DNA of 64,000 nucleotides from Acidobacteriota bacterium (GTDB lineage Bacteria > Acidobacteriota > Vicinamibacteria > Vicinamibacterales > SCN-69-37): contig JADYYY010000002.1 of the NCBI GenBank assembly GCA_020853395.1, forward strand, positions 208,609 to 272,608, given 5' to 3'. This document shows positions 1,834-62,970 of this stretch, piece by piece. Position numbers and translations under genes: made by a program. Under the pieces are notes generated by a model that searched no databases, was not told the DNA's origin, and saw only the letters and a program-made list of their open reading frames with translations. Numbering within the stretch: position 1 is the stretch's first letter; each line of letters begins with the position of its first letter.

Positions 1834-3116
1834 GCCGGCATCCTCGCACGCGTGAATCGCCGCAACAACCTCCGCGGCACGTCAGCCTCGATGGAGATCC
1901 GATGGGCATCGGCCACGTGGCTCACGACGCGGGCATGCCGGTACAGCTCGGCGACGAGGTGCCGGTCCTCCTCGCGCCGATCGTCGAACTCGAACTGCAC
2001 GCGTGCCGCGTTCATCGCGAGCCGCTCGCCGATCGCTTCGATCAGCGGATCGCGACCGATGTCGCACGCGGCCGACACGAAGACGGCCGACGGATGTGCG
2101 GCCCGGAGCGCACGCAATGCGTCGTCGTCCACGAGGTCGATCTTGTTGAAGACGTCGAGCACCGGCACGAGATCCGCGCCGACCTCGGCGAGGACGGCCT
2201 CGACCGCCGCCGCCCGGCGCTCCCGATCCGGCGCCGACGCGTCGCGGACGTGCACCAGCAGGTCGGCGCGAGAGACCTCCTCGAGCGTCGCATGGAACGC
2301 GGCGACGAGCTGGTGCGGCAGCCGGTCGATGAACCCGACGGTGTCGGCGAGCAGGATCTGCCGCGCATCGGCCAGCTTCATCCGGCGCAGCAGCGGATCG
2401 AGCGTCACGAAGAGCGCGTTGGAGGCGACGGCCGCTGCGCCCGTCAGCCAGTTGAAGAGCGTCGTCTTGCCGGCGTTCGTGTAGCCGACGAGCGCGACGG
2501 TCGGCACATCCGCGCGCCGCCGGCGCGCGCCGAGATAGCCGCGCCGCCGCCGCACTTCGGCGATCTCGCGCTTCAGGCTCGCGATGCGCTGGCGAATGCG
2601 GCGCCGGTCGGTTTCGAGCTTGGTTTCGCCGGGGCCTCTCGTGCCGATGCCGCCGCCGAGCCGCGACAGCGCCGCGCCGCTGCCGGCGAGCCGCGGCAGC
2701 GTGTACTGGAGCTGCGCGAGCTCCACCTGCAGCTTGCCCTCGTGCGTCCGGGCGCGTTGGGCGAAGATGTCGAGGATGAGCTCCGTGCGATCGATCACGC
2801 GCCGGCCGCAGATGGCTTCGAGGTTCCGAGCCTGCGCCGGCGTGATGACGTTGTCGACGATCACCAGACCCGCGTCGTGCTCGTCGCAGGCGCGCGCCAG
2901 CATCTCGGCCTTGCCGCGGCCGATGAGCGTCGCGGCGTCTGGCTGATCCCGGTCCTGCGCCATGCGCAGCACCACCGCGGCTCCGGCCGCGCGCGCGAGG
3001 CCGGCGAGCTCGTCGAGCGCGACGTCGGGATCCTCGCGGCGGCCGCGCACGCCTAGGCTGACGAGGGCGGCGCGTTCGCTTGGCCGCTCGCCTGACGTCG
3101 TGACGTTGCGGGTCAT
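1830..3116 (-). CDS. hflX: GTPase HflX
   Basis: Ribosome-associated GTPase of the HflX/Obg class, 428 residues, the usual length. It has the HflX signature GGGIGTRGPGETKLE, followed by an arginine-rich helical linker and a G domain with P-loop GYTNAGKTTLFN near residue 213, DTVGFI (G3) and NKIDLV (G4). In other bacteria HflX binds or splits 50S and 70S ribosomes under stress. It starts at ATG 3116, overlapping the Sua5 stop by four bases, and its own stop overlaps the next gene by four bases, so translation is probably coupled through the operon. Confidence 0.95.
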   Translation of the reverse strand: MTRNVTTSGERPSERAALVSLGVRGRREDPDVALDELAGLARAAGAAVVLRMAQDRDQPDAATLIGRGKAEMLARACDEHDAGLVIVDNVITPAQARNLEAICGRRVIDRTELILDIFAQRARTHEGKLQVELAQLQYTLPRLAGSGAALSRLGGGIGTRGPGETKLETDRRRIRQRIASLKREIAEVRRRRGYLGARRRRADVPTVALVGYTNAGKTTLFNWLTGAAAVASNALFVTLDPLLRRMKLADARQILLADTVGFIDRLPHQLVAAFHATLEEVSRADLLVHVRDASAPDRERRAAAVEAVLAEVGADLVPVLDVFNKIDLVDDDALRALRAAHPSAVFVSAACDIGRDPLIEAIGERLAMNAARVQFEFDDRREEDRHLVAELYRHARVVSHVADAHRISIEADVPRRLLRRFTRARMPA

Positions 3117-54330: not shown

Positions 54331-54810
54331 ATGCTCACGAGAAAATCCAAGTACGGCATCAAGGCGGTGCTCGCGCTCGCCGAACGGCAAGGCGGCCAAC
54401 CGGTGCTCATCGCCGACGTCGCGGCGAAGCACCGGATTCCGATGAAGTTCCTGCAGGCGATTCTGCTCGACCTGAAGCGCCACGGCATCCTGCAGAGCAA
54501 GAAGGGCAAGGGGGGCGGCTACTTCCTGCGCCGCGATCCTCACGACATCACGGTCGGCGAGGTGATCCGCGTGCTGGACGGCCCGCTCGCCCTCGTCCCC
54601 TGCGTCAGCCAAACGGCCTACCACCGCTGCGAGGAGTGCGTGGACGAAGCCACGTGCCGCGTGCGCTGGATCATGCGCGAAGTGCGAGACGCCACGGCCG
54701 GCATTCTCGACCGCACGTCGCTGGCGGAGCTGAACGCGCGCGGCCGTGCGACGCCGCGGCGCCGCACGGCGGCCCGCGGTCGAGCCGGCAATAGTCTATT
54801 GACACGATAG
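54331..54810 (+). CDS. Rrf2-family regulator with four cysteines
   Basis: A 159-residue winged-helix regulator (SKYGIKAVLALAERQGGQPVLIADVAAKHRIPMKFLQAILLDL at the N terminus, GKGGGYFLRR wing). A Cys cluster follows: C91, C100, C103 and C109, able to bind an iron-sulfur cluster as in IscR but with different spacing, so it may sense Fe-S status, sulfur or redox. Its stop codon lies inside the spacer of the sulfate operon promoter, and an inverted repeat overlaps the -35 box, so it is the best candidate regulator of that operon. Confidence 0.88.
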   Translation: MLTRKSKYGIKAVLALAERQGGQPVLIADVAAKHRIPMKFLQAILLDLKRHGILQSKKGKGGGYFLRRDPHDITVGEVIRVLDGPLALVPCVSQTAYHRCEECVDEATCRVRWIMREVRDATAGILDRTSLAELNARGRATPRRRTAARGRAGNSLLTR

Positions 54811-54825
54811 ACTTTGACGTCTATT
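54793..54825. promoter_or_regulatory. Inverted repeat operator overlapping the sulfate promoter
   Basis: AGTCTAT (54793-54799) and ATAGACT (54807-54813) form a perfect 7-bp inverted repeat with a 7-base spacer; a third copy of GTCTAT begins at 54819. The repeat covers the -35 box and the third copy reaches the -10 box, a repressor-type arrangement. Binding by the adjacent Rrf2 protein is inference. Confidence 0.6.
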
Positions 54826-54827
54826 CT
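54799..54827 (+). promoter_or_regulatory. Sigma-70 type promoter of the sulfate operon
   Basis: TTGACA (54799-54804), a 17-base spacer, then TATTCT (54822-54827). The -35 is perfect and the spacing ideal. Predicted transcription start is about 54833-54834, at the GTG of the cysteine-rich leader ORF. Confidence 0.72.
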
Positions 54828-54833
54828 CGTTCC

Positions 54834-54923
54834 GTGACCTGCTCGCTGCTCCCGGTCTACTGTTGCTGTGCCACGCCGGCGGCCCCCCGCTGCGCGTGTA
54901 CCACGCCGACGGCTGGCCGATGA
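54834..54923 (+). CDS. Cysteine-rich leader peptide ORF, apparently leaderless
   Basis: A 29-codon ORF (GTG 54834 to TGA 54921) encoding a peptide that begins MTCSLLPVYCCCATP. It has six cysteines, at positions 3, 10, 11, 12, 20 and 22. Its start coincides with the predicted transcription start, so translation would be leaderless. The run of three Cys codons resembles the polycysteine upstream ORFs that sense cysteine in mycobacterial sulfur operons. It precedes the porin and sulfate transporter genes by 91 bases. Not demonstrated; support is composition, promoter position and context. Confidence 0.6.
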   Translation: MTCSLLPVYCCCATPAAPRCACTTPTAGR

Positions 54924-54930
54924 GCGCGCA

Positions 54931-54997
54931 CCGCACGTAGCACCCTCCGCGCCTCACGCCCAGCTGCTTCGGCTTCGCGCCCCGCACGACCGTGCGG
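54931..54997 (+). promoter_or_regulatory. Competing hairpin arms between leader ORF and porin gene
   Basis: CCGCACG occurs at 54931-54937 and again at 54982-54988; both can pair with CGTGCGG at 54991-54997. The first copy begins 8 bases after the leader stop, so a ribosome on the stop codon would cover it. The hairpin of the second copy ends 7 bases before the Shine-Dalgarno of the porin gene. This is an attenuator-like arrangement. Confidence 0.5.
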
Positions 54998-55014
54998 ATT
55001 CTCGAGAGGACTGC

Positions 55015-56304
55015 GTGTACAGAGCACAGAATAGGGACATTTCAGCGTCGTTGCGCCGCCGCGCGCCGGCGGCCATCGTCGCGATCGCCGTGTGTGTACC
55101 GGCGTGCCTCTCCGCGCAGGCGGCCGGCCCTTCGCCCGCCGCGGCCGGCTGGCAGAGCGGCGTCGTCGTGCAGTCGACGGACGGCGACAACCGGCTGACC
55201 CTCGGCGGCATCCTGCAGGTCGACGGCAGATTCGTCGACGAAAGCTCGACGACCGCCGTCGATACGTTCGCCATTCGGAAGGCCAGGCTCGTCATGGGCG
55301 GCCGCGTGGCGAAGTACTTCGAGTTCCGGATCGTGCCCGACTTCGGCAATGGGCAGGCGACGTTGGCGGACGCCTACTTCGACTTTCTCATCTCGCCGGC
55401 GCTCAGAATCCGCGCCGGCAAGGACAAGTCGCCCGTCGGCTACGAGTTGCTGATCAGCGACGCGGCGGTGCTCTTCCTCGATCGGTCGTTGTCATCCGGT
55501 CTCGTGCCGAATCGCGATGTCGGCATCCAGGCGCAGGGAGACCTCGCCGGCGGCACGGTGGCGTACGCGGCCGGCGTTCTCAACGGCGTGCCGGATGGCA
55601 CGAGCTCGACGACCGATACCGACACCAACGGCGGCAAAGACCTCGCGGCACGCGTGGCCGTGCGGCCGTTTCGGTCCTTGCCGGCGTGGGGCGGCGCCCT
55701 TCGCGGCCTAGGATTCCACCTGGGAGGCTCGACCGGTGAACAGGCTGGGGCGCTGCCGGCGTACCGCACGTCCGGGGGCCAGACCTACTTCGCCTACGCC
55801 CCGGCTGGCAGCAGCAGCCCGGCTGTCGTCGCAAGCGGACGGCGCTCGCGCACTGCTCCCGCCGTCTTCTACTACTACAAATCGTTCGGCGCCTTCGCGG
55901 AATACGTCCGAACGACACAGCCTGTCGCTCGAGCCCAATCCGTCGTCGACGCCACGAACCACGGATGGGACGTCACGGCGTCGTACCTGCTCACCGGCGA
56001 AGCCGCAACGGCCGGGCTCCCCGCGCCTGCGACGCCATTCGATCCCTCGAAGGGGTCATGGGGAGCGCTGCAGATCGTGGCGCGTTGCGCGGCGCTCACG
56101 ATCGATCCTGCGATCTTCGAGGCCGGGCTCGCGGCGACCGGTGCCAGCCGTCGCGCGCAGCAGTTCACGATCGGCCTCAACTGGTATCCCACAGCGGCCG
56201 TGAAGTACTACCTGGACTACGAGCGAACGTCGTTCGACACGCCCGCTCCGGGCGCTCGCCCGACCGAGCACGTGATCTCGTTTCGACTTCAACTGGCCAT
56301 CTAG
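55015..56304 (+). CDS. OprP/OprO-like porin of the sulfate operon
   Basis: An outer-membrane porin of 429 residues. A signal peptide (ends near LSAQA) precedes a barrel starting [29 protein letters not shown], with [25 protein letters not shown] and [13 protein letters not shown], and ending [12 protein letters not shown]. This is the phosphate-selective porin (OprO/OprP) family, but its place ahead of the sulfate ABC genes suggests sulfate or another anion. Start GTG 55015, with GAGAGGA 5 bases upstream; longer open frame rejected since it runs through the leader region. Confidence 0.85.
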
Positions 56305-56317
56305 CCGACACGAGTCA

Positions 56318-57346
56318 ATGGCAGAACGACACGCGATGGTGATCTCCACAGTGACACGGCTCATGATGCTGACCCTTGCCGGGGTCCTGACGGCCGCCCT
56401 CGCGGGCGCGCAGTCGCTGCTGAACGTCTCGTACGACCCGACGCGGGAGCTGTACGCGCAGATCAACGCTGCCTTCAGCCGCTACTGGGAGGGCAAGACC
56501 CGGCAGAAGATCACGGTGCAGCAGTCGCACGGGGGCTCGGGGGCGCAGGCGCGCGCGGTGGCCGACGGCCTCGATGCCGACGTCGTCACGCTCGCCCTCG
56601 CGTACGACATCGACGCGATCCAGCGGGCCGGCCTCATCAACAGCGCCGCCTGGCAGACGCGCCTGCCGCTCAACAGCGCACCCTACACCTCGACCATCGT
56701 GTTCGTCGTCCGCAAGGGCAACCCGAAAGGCATCAAGGACTGGAACGACCTGGTGAAGCCGGGCGTCAGCGTCATCACGCCGAATCCGAAGACCTCCGGC
56801 GGCGCGCGCTGGAACTACCTGGCGGCCTGGGAATACGCGAAGCGTCAGCCTGGCGGAAACGACACGAAGGCCCGCGAGTTCGTCGCGGCCCTGTACCGCA
56901 ACGTGCCGGTGCTCGACTCCGGCGCGCGCGGCGCCACCACGACCTTCATCCAACGGAAGATCGGCGACGTGCTGCTGGCCTGGGAAAACGAAGCCTTTCT
57001 GGCGCTCGACGAAGCCAAGGGCCAGGTCGAGATCGTTGCGCCGTCGATCAGCATCCTCGCCGAGCCACCGGTCGCCATCGTCGACAAGGTCGTCGACAAG
57101 AAGGGCACGCGCGCGGTCGCGCAGGCGTACCTCGACTTCCTCTACACGCCGGAAGCCCAGGAGATCATCGCGAAGCACCACTACCGGCCGCGCAACGCCG
57201 AGGTCGTGAAGAAATACCTCTCGACCTTCGCGCCCATCACGCTCTTCACCATCGACGAAGCGTTCGGCGGCTGGCAACAGGCGCAGAAGACGCACTTCGC
57301 CGACCGCGGCACGTTCGATCAGATTTACCAGCCGGGCCGTCGTTGA
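56318..57346 (+). CDS. Sulfate ABC transporter substrate-binding protein
   Basis: Periplasmic sulfate-binding protein of the Sbp/CysP family, 342 residues. Signal peptide followed by [48 protein letters not shown], and [20 protein letters not shown], the family's ligand-binding motifs. ATG 56318 and ATG 56336 are both plausible starts. Fourteen bases after the porin and overlapping cysT by the stop codon. Confidence 0.95.
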
Positions 57347-58173
57347 CCGTGCCGACTCGCCACACCGTCATCCCGGGTTTCGGCCTGACGATGGGCTTCA
57401 CCCTGTTCTATTTGGGGCTCATCGTGCTGATCCCGCTCTCGATGCTGCCGCTCCGCAGCGCCTCGATGGGCTGGGCGGCATTTCGCGAAGCGGTGACCGA
57501 TCCGCGCGTCGTGGCGTCGTATCGGCTCAGCCTCGTGGCGTCGCTCACCGCCGCGGCCGTCAACGCGGTCTTCGGCGCACTCGTCGCCTGGGTGCTGGTC
57601 CGCTATCGGTTTCCCGGCCAGCGCATCGTCGACGCGCTGATCGACTTGCCCTTCGCCCTGCCGACCGCGGTCGCCGGCATCACGCTGACCGGCCTGTACG
57701 CGCCGAGCGGCTGGCTGGGCCGGCCTCTCGAGGCCTATGGCATCAAGGTGGCGTTCACGCCGCTCGGCATCACGATCGCGCTCGTGTTCATCGGCCTGCC
57801 ATTCGTCGTTCGCACGCTGCAGCCGGTCATCGAGGACCTCGACGTCGCGGTGGAGGAAGCGGCCACGAGCCTTGGCGCGAACCGTCTGACGGTTCTGACC
57901 AAGGTCATCCTGCCCTACCTCGTGCCCGCGTGGCTGACCGGCTTCGCCCTTGCGTTCGCGCGGGCCATCGGCGAGTACGGGTCGGTCGTGTTCATCTCCG
58001 GCAACATGCCGATGCAGACCGAGATCTCGCCGCTCATCATCATCACCAAGCTCGAGCAGTTCGACTACGCGGGCGCCACGGCGGTCGCCGTGATCATGCT
58101 CTCGATCTCGTTCCTGCTGCTGCTCCTGATCAATGCGATCCAGCATTGGAGCAGCCGGCGCCTGGCGCACTGA
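57343..58173 (+). CDS. cysT: Sulfate ABC transporter permease CysT (CysU)
   Basis: Inner-membrane permease of 276 residues with the CysT feature [18 protein letters not shown] at the N terminus, [27 protein letters not shown], and the EAA loop [23 protein letters not shown]. The start is TTG 57343 (overlapping the Sbp stop) or GTG 57349. It pairs with CysW. Confidence 0.95.
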
Positions 58174-58178
58174 CCTCC

Positions 58179-59075
58179 ATGGCGGGCCACGTCCACGCGC
58201 ACACGTCGAAGCTGCCACCGCCGGCGCGGCAGCTCACCGAGCCGGCCGGCCTGCGGCGGCTGCTCATCGGGATCGTGCTCGTGTTCCTCACGCTGTTCCT
58301 GGCCCTGCCGCTGGCAAGCGTCTTCACGGAGGCGTTCGCGAATGGATGGGACGCCTACGTGGCGGCAATCACGAATCCCGACGCGCTGGCCGCGCTGCGA
58401 TTGACACTGGTCGCTGCCGCGATCGCCGTGCCGGCCAACCTGCTGTTCGGCCTCGCCGCCGGATGGGCCATCGCGAAGTTCCGGTTTCCCGGCCGGAACC
58501 TCCTGATCACGCTGATCGATCTGCCCTTCGCGGTCTCGCCCGTGATCTCCGGCATGGTGTTCGTGCTGCTCGTCGGCCGGCAGGGGCTTCTCGGTCCGTG
58601 GCTGTTCGAGCACGATGTGAAGATCGTCTTCGCGGTGCCGGGGATCGTGCTGGCCACGGTCTTCGTCTCCTTCCCCTTCGTCGCCCGCGAGATCATTCCG
58701 GTGATGGAGGCGACGGGCACCGAGGAAGAAGAGGCGGCGCGCGTGCTCGGCGCCGGCGGATTCCAAACCTTCTGGCGCGTGACGCTGCCCAACATCAAGT
58801 GGGGACTGCTCTACGGCGTGATCCTCTGCAACGCCCGCGCGATGGGCGAATTCGGCGCCGTCTCCGTCGTGTCGGGCAAGATCCGCGGCCTGACGAACAC
58901 GCTGCCGCTGCACGTGGAAGTGCTCTACAACGAATACAACATCCAAGCGGCGTTCGCGGTGGCCTCGCTCCTGACCTTGCTCGCGCTGGTGACGCTCGTG
59001 GCCAAGGTCCTCGTTGAACGCCAACTCGAGCGCGCGCTGTCGTCGCAGGACGACACGACCCTCCGGAAGCCGTAA
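58179..59075 (+). CDS. cysW: Sulfate ABC transporter permease CysW
   Basis: Second permease, 298 residues, starting at ATG 58179 five bases after cysT. CysW marks are [49 protein letters not shown], the EAA loop [32 protein letters not shown] and [15 protein letters not shown]. Its stop codon shares a base with the cysA start (TAATG). Confidence 0.96.
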
Positions 59076-60133
59076 TGGGGATCGAGGTCAGGAACGTGAC
59101 GAAGACGTTCGGCGCCTTCCGGTCGCTCGACGACGTGAGCTTCCGCGTCGCGTCGGGCGAATTGGTGGCGCTGCTCGGTCCTTCGGGGTCCGGCAAGACC
59201 ACCTTGCTGCGCATCATCGCCGGGTTGGAACGCGCCGATCGGGGCACCGTCCTGCTCGAGGAGGAGGACGCGACGCACCGCACGGCCGGCGACCGCGGCG
59301 TCGGATTCGTCTTCCAGCACTACGCGCTCTTCCGGCACATGACCGTCTTCGAGAACGTCGCGTTCGGCCTTCGCGTGCGGCCGCGATCCACACGCCCGTC
59401 CGAGGACGTCATCCGCCGGAAGGTGCAGGAACTGCTCGAGCTCGTGCAGCTCGACTACCTCGACAGCCGCTATCCCCGCCAACTGTCTGGCGGGCAGCGG
59501 CAGCGGGTCGCGCTCGCGCGGGCGCTCGCGATCGAGCCGAAGGTCCTGCTGCTCGACGAGCCATTCGGCGCCCTCGACGCGAAGGTGCGCCTCGAGCTGC
59601 GGCGCTGGCTCCGCCGCCTTCACGAGGAGATCCACCTCACCAGCGTGTTCGTCACGCACGATCAGGAGGAAGCCCTCGAGCTCGCCGACCGCATCGTCGT
59701 GATGAACGAAGGGCGGATTGAACAGGAGGGGCGTCCCGAAGACGTCTTCGAGCATCCTGCCACGCCGTTCGTGATGAACTTCCTCGGCAGCGTCAACATC
59801 TTCCATGGCCGGGTCGAGAGCGGGCAGGCGCTGCTCGGGCCGATCGCGCTCGACTACCCGGATCACGCCGACGCCACGGCCCGGCCGGCCGCGGGCTACG
59901 CCCGCCCGCACGAGCTCGACCTGAGCCGCAGCGACGATGGCGGCGGCCTGTGGGCCACCGTAACCGCCCTGCACACCACGGGCGGCGTCGTCAAACTCGA
60001 GCTGTCGACCGACGATGCCCAGGTGATTCAGGTGCACGTCGGCCGAGACGTCTTCCAGGCGCTCGCGCCCGCGATTGGCGAGCGGCTGTACGTCACGCCC
60101 CGCAAGCTGCGCGTGTTCCTGTCGGCACACTGA
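59075..60133 (+). CDS. cysA: Sulfate ABC transporter ATP-binding protein CysA
   Basis: ATPase of 352 residues with Walker [10 protein letters not shown] near residues 34-42, signature [15 protein letters not shown], Walker [13 protein letters not shown] and the switch histidine in [10 protein letters not shown]. The C-terminal 110 residues form the TOBE-like regulatory domain of CysA. It completes the porin-sbp-cysTWA operon. Confidence 0.96.
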
Positions 60134-60219: not shown

Positions 60220-60363
60220 GCGCGTAGTTTCCCAGCAGGCTCCTTCCCTCCTCCTCGGCCGTCCGGCTACGCCGCTGTCGTGTGCCGGGCGCCTCGTGCG
60301 CCCTCGTGCGGCCGTCATGTCGGCGGCCGTTCACGGGGTCCAGTCGGACCCGCAGGAGAAGAG

Positions 60364-62970
60364 ATGTCGACGACGATCGTGAAGTTCCCGGCGGCGCTGT
60401 TGCTCGCGCTGCTGCCCGCGCTCGGGTTCGCCCAGGCGCAACCCCCTTCCCCCACCGGTGCCGTGACGGGCCGCGTGCGTGACTCGCTCGGCGGCGCGAT
60501 TCCCGGCGCCGTCATCCGCGTCGTGAACGAATCGACGAACACGGCCGTTCAAGCCGTCAGCAGCGACCAGGGCACTTATGAAGTCACCGGGCTGGCACCT
60601 GGTGCCTACCGGCTCGAGGCGAATCTGGACGGCTTCGAAACGGCCACGGGACGGTTCACCATCCTGGCCGGCCAGACCGCCACACTCGACGTGATTCTGC
60701 TGCCGTCCCGCATTTCGCAGACCGTCGTGGTCACGGCGCGCCGCACCGAGGAGGCCGTCCAGGAAGTGCCGATCCCGGTGTCGGTCGTCGGCGGCGATCT
60801 CGTCGCGGACGCGGGCGCGTTCAACGTCAACCGCCTGAAAGAGATCGTGCCGACCGTGCAGTTCTACTCGACGAACCCAAGGAACTCGGCGATCAACATC
60901 CGCGGGCTCGGCGCGCCGTTCGGCCTGACGAACGACGGGCTGGAACCTGGTGTCGGTCTGTACATCGACGGCGTCTTCTATGCACGGCCCGCCGCCGCGA
61001 CGCTCGACTTCCTCGACGTCGAGCGCATCGAGGTGCTCCGCGGCCCCCAGGGCACGCTGTTCGGCAAGAACACGACGGCTGGCGCCATCAACGTCACGAC
61101 GCGCAAGCCGAGCTTCACGCCGCAAGGGGACTTCGAGCTGAACTACGGCACGTATGGGTACGTCCAGGCGAAAGCCTCGATCACCGGCCCGATCACGAAG
61201 AAGATCGCCGGCCGGCTGTCGTTCTCAGGAACGCAGCGCGACGGCCTCATCTTCAACGTCGCGAAGCAGGACGACGTGAACGATCTGAACAACCTCGGCG
61301 TCCGAGGCCAGATGCTGGCCACCGTTTCCGACGGCCTGATCCTCACGGTGGCGGCCGACAATACGCGTCAGCGCCCTGAAGGCTACACGCAGGTGGTGGC
61401 GGGCGTCGCGCCGACGCTCCGGGCCGCCAACCGACAGTGGAACGCCATCGCGTCGGACCTCCGGTACACGCCGCCGAGCTACAACGCGTTCGACCGGGTG
61501 ACCGACATCGACACGCCGCTGCGGTCGAGTCAGGACATGGGCGGCGCCTCGGCCAACGCCGACTGGAAGGTCGGTCGCGGTCTCGTGACGGCGACCGTCG
61601 CGTGGCGCTACTGGAACTGGGATCCGTCCAACGACCGCGACTTCATCGGCCTGGCCGTGACGCCGGTTTCGGCCGCGCCGTCGAAACAGGACCAGTGGAC
61701 GCAGGAAGTTCGATACGCCGGCGACATCTCGCCGCGTCTCAACGTGGTCTTCGGCGTGTTCAACTTCCGGCAGGGCATCAACTCCAATCCCTCGTTCCGG
61801 CAGGAGCAGGGTGCGGCAGCATGGCGGTTTCTGCTGACGCCGAATGCCGCCGCCGCGACGCCCGGCCTGCTCGACGGCTACGGCTACGACCAGTTCGTGG
61901 ACTTCTCGACCGTCAGTTCGGCTGCGTTCGGCCAGCTCGAATGGCACGTCACCGACCGGCTGCGCATCCTGCCAGGGTTGCGCTTCAACCACGACAAGAA
62001 GCAGGTGGACTTCGACCAGCAGATCTACGGCGGCCTGCAGACGACGAACGCCGCGCTCATCGCGCTGCAGCGCTCGGTGCTGGCGCCGCAGACGTATGCC
62101 GCCAACGTGGCCAAGAACGACGTGTCGGGCCAGTTCACCGTGGCGTACAAGGCGAGCGAGCGCGCGCACGCTTTCGCCACCTACGCGAAGAGCTTCAAGT
62201 CGGTGGGCCTGAACCTCAACGGCGTTCCGACCGACGCCAACAACGACCCGGTCCTGTCGGCCGCGACGGTGAAGCCCGAGAACGTGCACCATCTCGAGGC
62301 GGGTGTGAAGACCGAGCCGCTGCCAGGCGTGACGTTCAACGTCACAGCGTTCGACACGACGATCCGCGACTTCCAGGCACAGGTCGTCAACGCGAACGTC
62401 GGCGTGCTGCGAGGTTATCTCGCCAACGCCGAGAAGGTCCGGGTGCGCGGCGTCGAATTCGACGGCAACGCGCAGATTGGCCGCCACGTCTCCCTCTATG
62501 GCGCCGGCGCCTACACGGACGGCAAGTACGTGTCGTTCACCGACGCCCCGCCCCCGCTCGAGGACACCGGCGGCCCGCAGGTCAAGGACATCTCCGGATC
62601 GCTCCTCCCCGGAATCTCGAAGTGGGCGCTCTCGCTCGGCGGCGAAGTGTCGGCTCCCGGCACGTTTTTCGGCAGCACGGGCGTGTTCTTCGCAGCCGCC
62701 GACGCCAGCTATCGATCCTCCTTCTCGTCGAGCCCGAGCGCGTCGAAGTACCTCGTGATCGACGGTTACTCGCTGCTCAACACGCGGGTCGGCTTCCGCT
62801 GGTCGGATGGATGGCAGATCTTCGTGTGGGCGCGCAACGTGCTCGACAAGGACTACTTCGAGCTGCTGACGGCGGCACCGGGCAACTCCGGTCTCTTCGT
62901 CGGTCAGCCGGGGGATCCACGCACCGCAGGGATCGCGCTGCGCGTGACGATCGGCACGGCGAGGAACTAG
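60364..62970 (+). CDS. TonB-dependent receptor with regulatory-like domain
   Basis: Outer-membrane receptor of 868 residues. Signal peptide to about residue 24 (ends GFAQA), a regulatory-like domain (AVTGRVRDSLGGAIPGAVIRVVNE), plug with VVVTARRTEEAVQEVPIPVSVVGGDLV, SAINIRGLGAP and VERIEVLRGPQGTLFGKNTTAGAINVTTRKP (classic TonB box region and plug), and a barrel ending GIALRVTIGTARN. The start has AGGAG 7 bases upstream. Position after the sulfate operon hints at a sulfur-containing substrate, but the sequence does not show it. Confidence 0.93.
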   Translation: MSTTIVKFPAALLLALLPALGFAQAQPPSPTGAVTGRVRDSLGGAIPGAVIRVVNESTNTAVQAVSSDQGTYEVTGLAPGAYRLEANLDGFETATGRFTILAGQTATLDVILLPSRISQTVVVTARRTEEAVQEVPIPVSVVGGDLVADAGAFNVNRLKEIVPTVQFYSTNPRNSAINIRGLGAPFGLTNDGLEPGVGLYIDGVFYARPAAATLDFLDVERIEVLRGPQGTLFGKNTTAGAINVTTRKPSFTPQGDFELNYGTYGYVQAKASITGPITKKIAGRLSFSGTQRDGLIFNVAKQDDVNDLNNLGVRGQMLATVSDGLILTVAADNTRQRPEGYTQVVAGVAPTLRAANRQWNAIASDLRYTPPSYNAFDRVTDIDTPLRSSQDMGGASANADWKVGRGLVTATVAWRYWNWDPSNDRDFIGLAVTPVSAAPSKQDQWTQEVRYAGDISPRLNVVFGVFNFRQGINSNPSFRQEQGAAAWRFLLTPNAAAATPGLLDGYGYDQFVDFSTVSSAAFGQLEWHVTDRLRILPGLRFNHDKKQVDFDQQIYGGLQTTNAALIALQRSVLAPQTYAANVAKNDVSGQFTVAYKASERAHAFATYAKSFKSVGLNLNGVPTDANNDPVLSAATVKPENVHHLEAGVKTEPLPGVTFNVTAFDTTIRDFQAQVVNANVGVLRGYLANAEKVRVRGVEFDGNAQIGRHVSLYGAGAYTDGKYVSFTDAPPPLEDTGGPQVKDISGSLLPGISKWALSLGGEVSAPGTFFGSTGVFFAAADASYRSSFSSSPSASKYLVIDGYSLLNTRVGFRWSDGWQIFVWARNVLDKDYFELLTAAPGNSGLFVGQPGDPRTAGIALRVTIGTARN

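Follow-up and report, generated by a model that had tools for sequence, protein, structure and literature searches.

What does a short open reading frame (ORF) crowded with cysteine codons do directly in front of a sulfate-transport operon? In the window, the 64,000-nucleotide stretch of an Acidobacteriota contig analysed here, an earlier note described a GTG-started ORF of 29 codons with six cysteines, three of them in a row, and proposed that it is a leader controlling the sulfur-uptake operon downstream. We find that this Cys-rich ORF is very probably a member of a conserved family that lets the ribosome measure cysteine and turns sulfur uptake on at shortage. Our best reading of the locus is a cysteine-responsive translational attenuator, on at low cysteine and under an Rrf2-controlled promoter, to which we assign a probability of about 0.72. 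The note's central claim is strongly supported, since relatives from several families of the order have kept the ORF, its Cys codons, its position ahead of sulfur genes and an RNA helix; a Cys leader before a sulfur-uptake operon thus stands, and the RNA arms that the note proposed for the switch do not.

The leader ORF and its promoter

The ORF, which encodes VTCSLLPVYCCCATPAAPRCACTTPTAGR, is present as described, and the GTG of the porin gene lies 91 nt past its stop codon, the spacing originally given (Table 1). From the local base composition, the chance of at least six Cys in 28 codons is roughly 3e-4, and among the 414 ORFs of 15–60 amino acids in the 64-kb window only the leader combines CCC with at least 17% Cys. 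Taken without relatives, the window sequence makes a case for a Cys ORF that is suggestive, not strong. After cysA, on the same strand, lies an ORF that looks like a TonB receptor and has a carboxypeptidase-regulatory-like N-terminus (60280–62970, by eye); it resembles the receptors found directly 3′ of the leader in other genomes and likely belongs to the leader-controlled regulon.

Table 1. Features of the leader locus and the downstream operon (window positions).
Feature	Position	Strand	Basis or remarks
Rrf2-family transcription regulator gene	54331–54810	+	Pfam PF02082, E 5.6e-35; directly upstream of the leader, 3′ end overlaps promoter
Inverted repeat AGTCTAT-N7-ATAGACT, candidate Rrf2 operator	54793–54813	.	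Arms 54793–54799 and 54807–54813; read directly from sequence
Promoter TTGACA-17-TATTCT	54799–54827	+	−35 TTGACA 54799–54804; −10 TATTCT 54822–54827
Cys leader ORF, VTCSLLPVYCCCATPAAPRCACTTPTAGR	54834–54923	+	29 codons, GTG start; probably leaderless mRNA start; homologues in 22 other genomes
P1 5′ arm, GCCGACGGCTGG	54905–54916	+	Last codons of leader ORF; covariation
Predicted anti-RBS segment, CACGTAGcacCCTC	54934–54947	+	Constrained fold, ribosome on stop codon
P1 3′ arm, CCAGCTGCTTCGGC	54960–54973	+	Untranslated; family consensus CCARUCGNUCGGC
Static hairpin CCGCAC-GACC-GTGCGG	54982–54997	+	5′ of porin Shine–Dalgarno; sequence not conserved; second hairpin of the earlier note
Porin Shine–Dalgarno GAGAGGA and GTG start	55004–55017	+	Read from sequence
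Porin, first gene of operon	55015–56304	+	Pfam PF07396 Porin_O_P, E 2.7e-23
Sulfate-binding protein, sbp	56318–57346	+	TIGR00971 over cut-off; PF13531
cysT permease	57343–58173	+	PF00528
cysW permease (start inferred)	58179–59075	+	PF00528 on 58209–59072
cysA ATPase	59075–60133	+	PF00005 and PF17850 CysA_C_terminal

The promoter elements were also borne out: TTGACA, a 17-base spacer and TATTCT stand before the ORF, and the predicted transcription start coincides with the leader GTG, 7 nt past the −10 box. The pattern TTGACA-N16–18-TATTCT occurs once in the 4.28-Mb genome, and its backward control pattern not at all. From the start of the −35 box to the GTG the window has 35 nt; its relatives mostly have 39–47 nt, that is, a 5′ untranslated region of a few bases. 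Because a TTGAC-like box lies 33–50 nt 5′ of the in-frame leader start in 18 of the 22 genomes having upstream sequence, the mRNA probably starts at the leader or a few bases before it.

The 7-bp inverted repeat overlaps the −35 box, as would be expected of the Rrf2 site named in the earlier note, to which the product of the adjacent gene may bind. Similar repeats, TAGTCTA...TAGACTA, occur 5′ of leaders in three relatives (G134, G138 and G122), and an Rrf2 gene adjoins several leaders, not all. A dual control, with an Rrf2 layer on top of the leader, is plausible from this arrangement. At one locus of another genome (L025 in G125, approximately 1960–1995), an Rrf2 orthologue is followed by the TAGTCTA/TAGACTA repeat and then directly by a gene, with no leader of the window's type; operator and leader are therefore separable.

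A leader family in relatives

The first relatives were reached through orthologues of the neighbouring Rrf2 protein, without using the Cys peptide. Cys-rich short ORFs beside Rrf2 genes (at L019, L020, L022, L023, L024 and L037, of which L037 and L019 are, judging by length, on the same contig) fall into two kinds, which we denote type A and type B. The initial type A set (the window, L020, L024 and L037, with G122 and G139 added by pattern search) precedes uptake genes and shares the tail C-x-C-A-C-I-G-P-T-x-x-x-stop. Hidden Markov models (HMMs) built from six, later ten, peptides were run against 396 genomes sampled from the phylum and 193 from the class. At E ≤ 1e-3 the class search matched 19 genomes, ten of them outside the query alignment, against approximately 0.2 expected by chance in 193 genomes. 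With weaker matches in the right context included, type A comprises 23 genomes of the window's order, probably Vicinamibacterales, with the family tail C-R-C-A-C-I-G-P-T-x-x-x-stop. The comparison of related upstream regions that the earlier note had called for thus finds both the ORF and its Cys codons. Because a Cys-rich HMM retrieved the members beyond the seed alignment, the Cys that they contain cannot be counted as independent evidence.

In the 396-genome sample of the phylum, the candidates that we inspected beyond the class were unconvincing; 38 genomes chosen through Rrf2 relatives gave one weak match, with an in-frame stop; and the second HMM match in the window's own genome (G000:C17:67579) has no Cys-rich short ORF with a suitable neighbour and is no further type A locus. 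Searches of 20 leader loci against Rfam covariance models gave no match at E ≤ 1, and no named leader family in NCBIfam or Pfam matched. Most of the genomes are probably metagenome assemblies.

The genes that follow the leader are varied. By Pfam, the next gene encodes a TonB receptor with a CarboxypepD_reg domain in seven genomes (G134, G129, G121, G186, G082, G060 and G135), a TauE/SafE permease in eight (G057, G139, G093, G072, G076, G122, G136 and G059) and a Porin_O_P protein in the window and G003; in G002 it encodes a sulfate-type solute-binding protein. G138 has a redoxin-domain protein first and then a porin (by eye), and some of the assignments in G105, G131, G123 and G046 were made by eye only. 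The sbp gene is present in only four of the 14 genomes of the window's family: the leader is there in the window, G002 and G003, and the G001 contig breaks off upstream of its sbp. In addition to the type A leader before sbp, G002 has a second one, MTSSLSCRCRPCACVSCRDACITPTAGW, in front of a TonB receptor (L259, approximately 3001–3085, + strand).

A conserved helix and a predicted ribosome-dependent switch

In every leader the final codons open with GCCG and continue with a near-constant ACGAY, and CCARUCGNUCGGC or a near-match lies 23–59 nt past the stop codon. These segments form a helix that we denote P1; in the window, 54905–54909 pair with 54969–54973 and 54912–54916 with 54960–54964. 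Across 23 distinct rows, 89.7% of the cells are paired and seven of the 11 pairs are altered on both sides, and on none of five measures does any of 500 shuffles reach the observed value; because the 23 species are related, not independent, the P values overstate independence. A shift of one to three columns destroys the signal, the true register being the best. In the strongest pair, columns 9 and 21, nine species have C-G and seven have U-A. We set the alignment manually, using UCGGC as the anchor, and two rows carry N at the bulge; this anchoring is in favour of the core pairs and not of the changes flanking them. Another candidate, a hairpin within the ORF (P0, codons up to and including C-R-C-A), folds in many species but was rejected, its two-sided changes being no more frequent than in shuffles.

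Cys codons make up 147 of 638 in-frame codons (23%), compared with 29 (4.5%) and 6 (0.9%) in the other frames. Arg19 uses all four CGN codons and Cys18 either Cys codon; TGT is invariant at Cys22 and CCG at Pro25, the latter as an RNA constraint would predict. As P1 explains the conservation of the tail proline and threonine, only the Cys codons and the Arg argue for the peptide itself.

The switch envisaged in the earlier note consisted of two CCGCACG copies, at 54931 and 54982, competing for CGTGCGG at 54991. All three segments exist, but they are not conserved: no family leader other than the window's has two copies with a complement, and the arms are peculiar to this genome. Moreover, the predicted folds for both ribosome positions contain the 54982/54991 hairpin, which is therefore not the switch. 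The pairing conserved in the family is instead that of P1.

We folded each RNA with the bases occupied by the ribosome barred from pairing, the ribosome being placed either on the first Cys run or on the stop codon. Opening the Shine–Dalgarno (SD) sequence costs on average 5.1 kcal/mol when the ribosome sits on the Cys run and 8.4 when it sits on the stop codon, and the SD is the more open in the former state in 22 of 23 species. Shuffling the leader tail raises the stalled-state cost to 7.2, and shuffling only the 12-nt arm raises it to 6.5; either removes much of the difference (paired Wilcoxon p=3e-6 and 3e-5, respectively). With the ribosome on the stop codon, the window is predicted to form an OFF helix of CACGUAG (54934–54940) with CUGCGUG (55011–55017), which includes the porin start codon, and of CCUC (54944–54947) with GAGG (55006–55009). 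This helix varies between species, and anti-SD:SD covariation over the family is not significant (p=0.12 and 0.05 in longest-run permutations), so that the model is weaker for the OFF state than for P1. As a covarying element the anti-SD:SD helix was rejected, on these p values and because duplex energies are equal for own and swapped partners.

On the basis of these data, we propose the following mechanism. Transcription would start at or just before the leader start codon, from a promoter under the candidate Rrf2 operator, and the Cys-rich leader, with its conserved coding pattern, would be translated. When charged Cys-tRNA is scarce, the ribosome would stall in the Cys run, leaving the last codons free to pair with CCARUCGNUCGGC as P1; the folding suggests that P1 then keeps the intervening segment off the ribosome-binding site (RBS) of the next gene, so that translation of the uptake gene can proceed. 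With plentiful cysteine, the ribosome would reach the stop codon and cover the P1 5′ arm, and the segment after the stop codon would, in the predicted folds, pair with the RBS (CACGUAGcacCCUC with GAGGaCUGCGUG in the window) and shut translation. What supports this direction, on when the ribosome stalls, is the constrained folding.

The same Cys sensor could act through Rho-dependent termination, a C-rich, G-poor loading site being exposed or hidden by the ribosome. The stretch from the leader stop to the P1 3′ arm is indeed 31–65% C and 14–27% G in the 23 species, and the same idea has been proposed for mycobacterial cys leaders lacking terminators (PMC1262725). However, the C-rich stretch may equally be anti-SD sequence, and Rho alone does not account for the dependence of SD accessibility on where the ribosome is placed in the model; we consider this output unlikely. 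An intrinsic terminator was not found in the window's leader region, and among the 23 type A gaps only those of G105 and G131 contain a T5 run. Only in G131 is the run terminator-like by eye: about 46 nt past the leader stop (L208), CCGGTC...GACCCGG-TTTTT lies around and after the P1 3′ arm, possibly an intermediate between translational and transcriptional output.

We give still less weight to the idea that P1 belongs to an RNA structure to which a ligand or protein binds, the ORF being incidental. The nucleotide invariance of P1 and of the codons for C22 and P25 would fit such an RNA, but the Cys runs ahead of P1 differ in length and in their use of TGT and TGC, Cys is strongly confined to one frame, Arg19 is free among its CGN codons and Rfam yields no match. 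A functional Cys-rich microprotein, for example one binding metal or acting in redox chemistry, would account for the high Cys content and for the conservation of some tails; it is very improbable given that the number of Cys (4–9) and their spacing vary widely, that the N-terminus is not conserved and that those tail residues which are conserved fall in the RNA arm. A chance Cys-rich ORF, conceivable from the window's P value among several hundred small ORFs, is refuted by conservation in 23 genomes before sulfur-uptake genes. The translational attenuator remains our preferred reading.

Known cysteine leaders and a second acidobacterial family

Seliverstov et al. (PMC1262725) predicted terminator-less Cys leader peptides in mycobacteria and other bacteria, Shell et al. 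2015 (PMC4633059) put such ORFs forward as candidates for the first bacterial examples of attenuation directed by cysteine, and mycobacterial polycysteine ORFs were tested by Canestrari et al. 2020, as cited in PMC9094748, PMC9031893 and PMC13236596. Like these mycobacterial leaderless ORFs, the type A leader is Cys-rich, probably leaderless or nearly so, contains consecutive Cys codons and lies directly 5′ of sulfur genes; no terminator was found in the window's leader region, nor for the mycobacterial cys leaders (PMC1262725); and ribosome speed at the Cys codons, reported to act on downstream translation in mycobacteria, would do so here according to the folding. In contrast to the mycobacterial leaders, its C-R-C-A-C-x-x-P-T tail encodes one arm of a covarying helix, its targets are mostly outer- and inner-membrane sulfur transport and it adjoins an Rrf2 gene in several genomes of a different phylum. 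The analogy drawn in the earlier note is thus apt in mechanism, and RNA architecture and phylum differ; our literature searches, in line with that note, found no case from Acidobacteriota.

As in the trp, his and ilv attenuators, the leader peptide is rich in the regulated amino acid and the position of the ribosome would set alternative RNA pairings; in contrast to them, the window's type A leader has no intrinsic terminator. Rrf2-family repressors of cysteine synthesis exist, CymR being an example. The window resembles such systems in having an Rrf2 regulator beside sulfur genes and an inverted repeat over the promoter, but CymR controls transcription initiation, and in the window such Rrf2 control would be a second layer over the leader.

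Type B, an unrelated Cys leader family of the same order with the tail EVPALSVxxxG (loci L229–L249 and L252–L254, in G134, G139, G122, G142, G129, G141, G138 and others), does fit the trp-type layout. Its terminator, GCCCGGG...CCCGGGC-T4–7, precedes cysD or a siroheme-synthase-like gene, and a terminator-like hairpin with a T run follows the stop codon in 21 of the 24 matches read from the class search. The next gene is mostly cysD and in several cases siroheme-synthase-like (by eye). Type B is absent from the window's genome, in which cysD directly follows another gene, with no leader. Type B has the layout of a textbook transcription attenuator for cysteine. On balance we lean towards a picture in which one order holds two unrelated Cys leaders, a translational one for uptake (type A) and a terminator-based one for sulfate activation (cysD) and siroheme genes (type B), often flanking a single Rrf2 gene.

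If this is true, type B would represent the classical, terminator-based kind of attenuator for cysteine, of which we found none described in the literature searched. In that literature, ribosomal cysteine sensing has so far been tested only in mycobacteria; an acidobacterial family with its own RNA helix would mean that this solution arose or spread elsewhere. Genomes that hold both types would allow translational attenuation to be compared, in a natural setting, with transcriptional attenuation by the same signal. The family also points to TonB receptors, porins and TauE/SafE permeases as likely sulfur-scavenging parts in these hard-to-grow bacteria.
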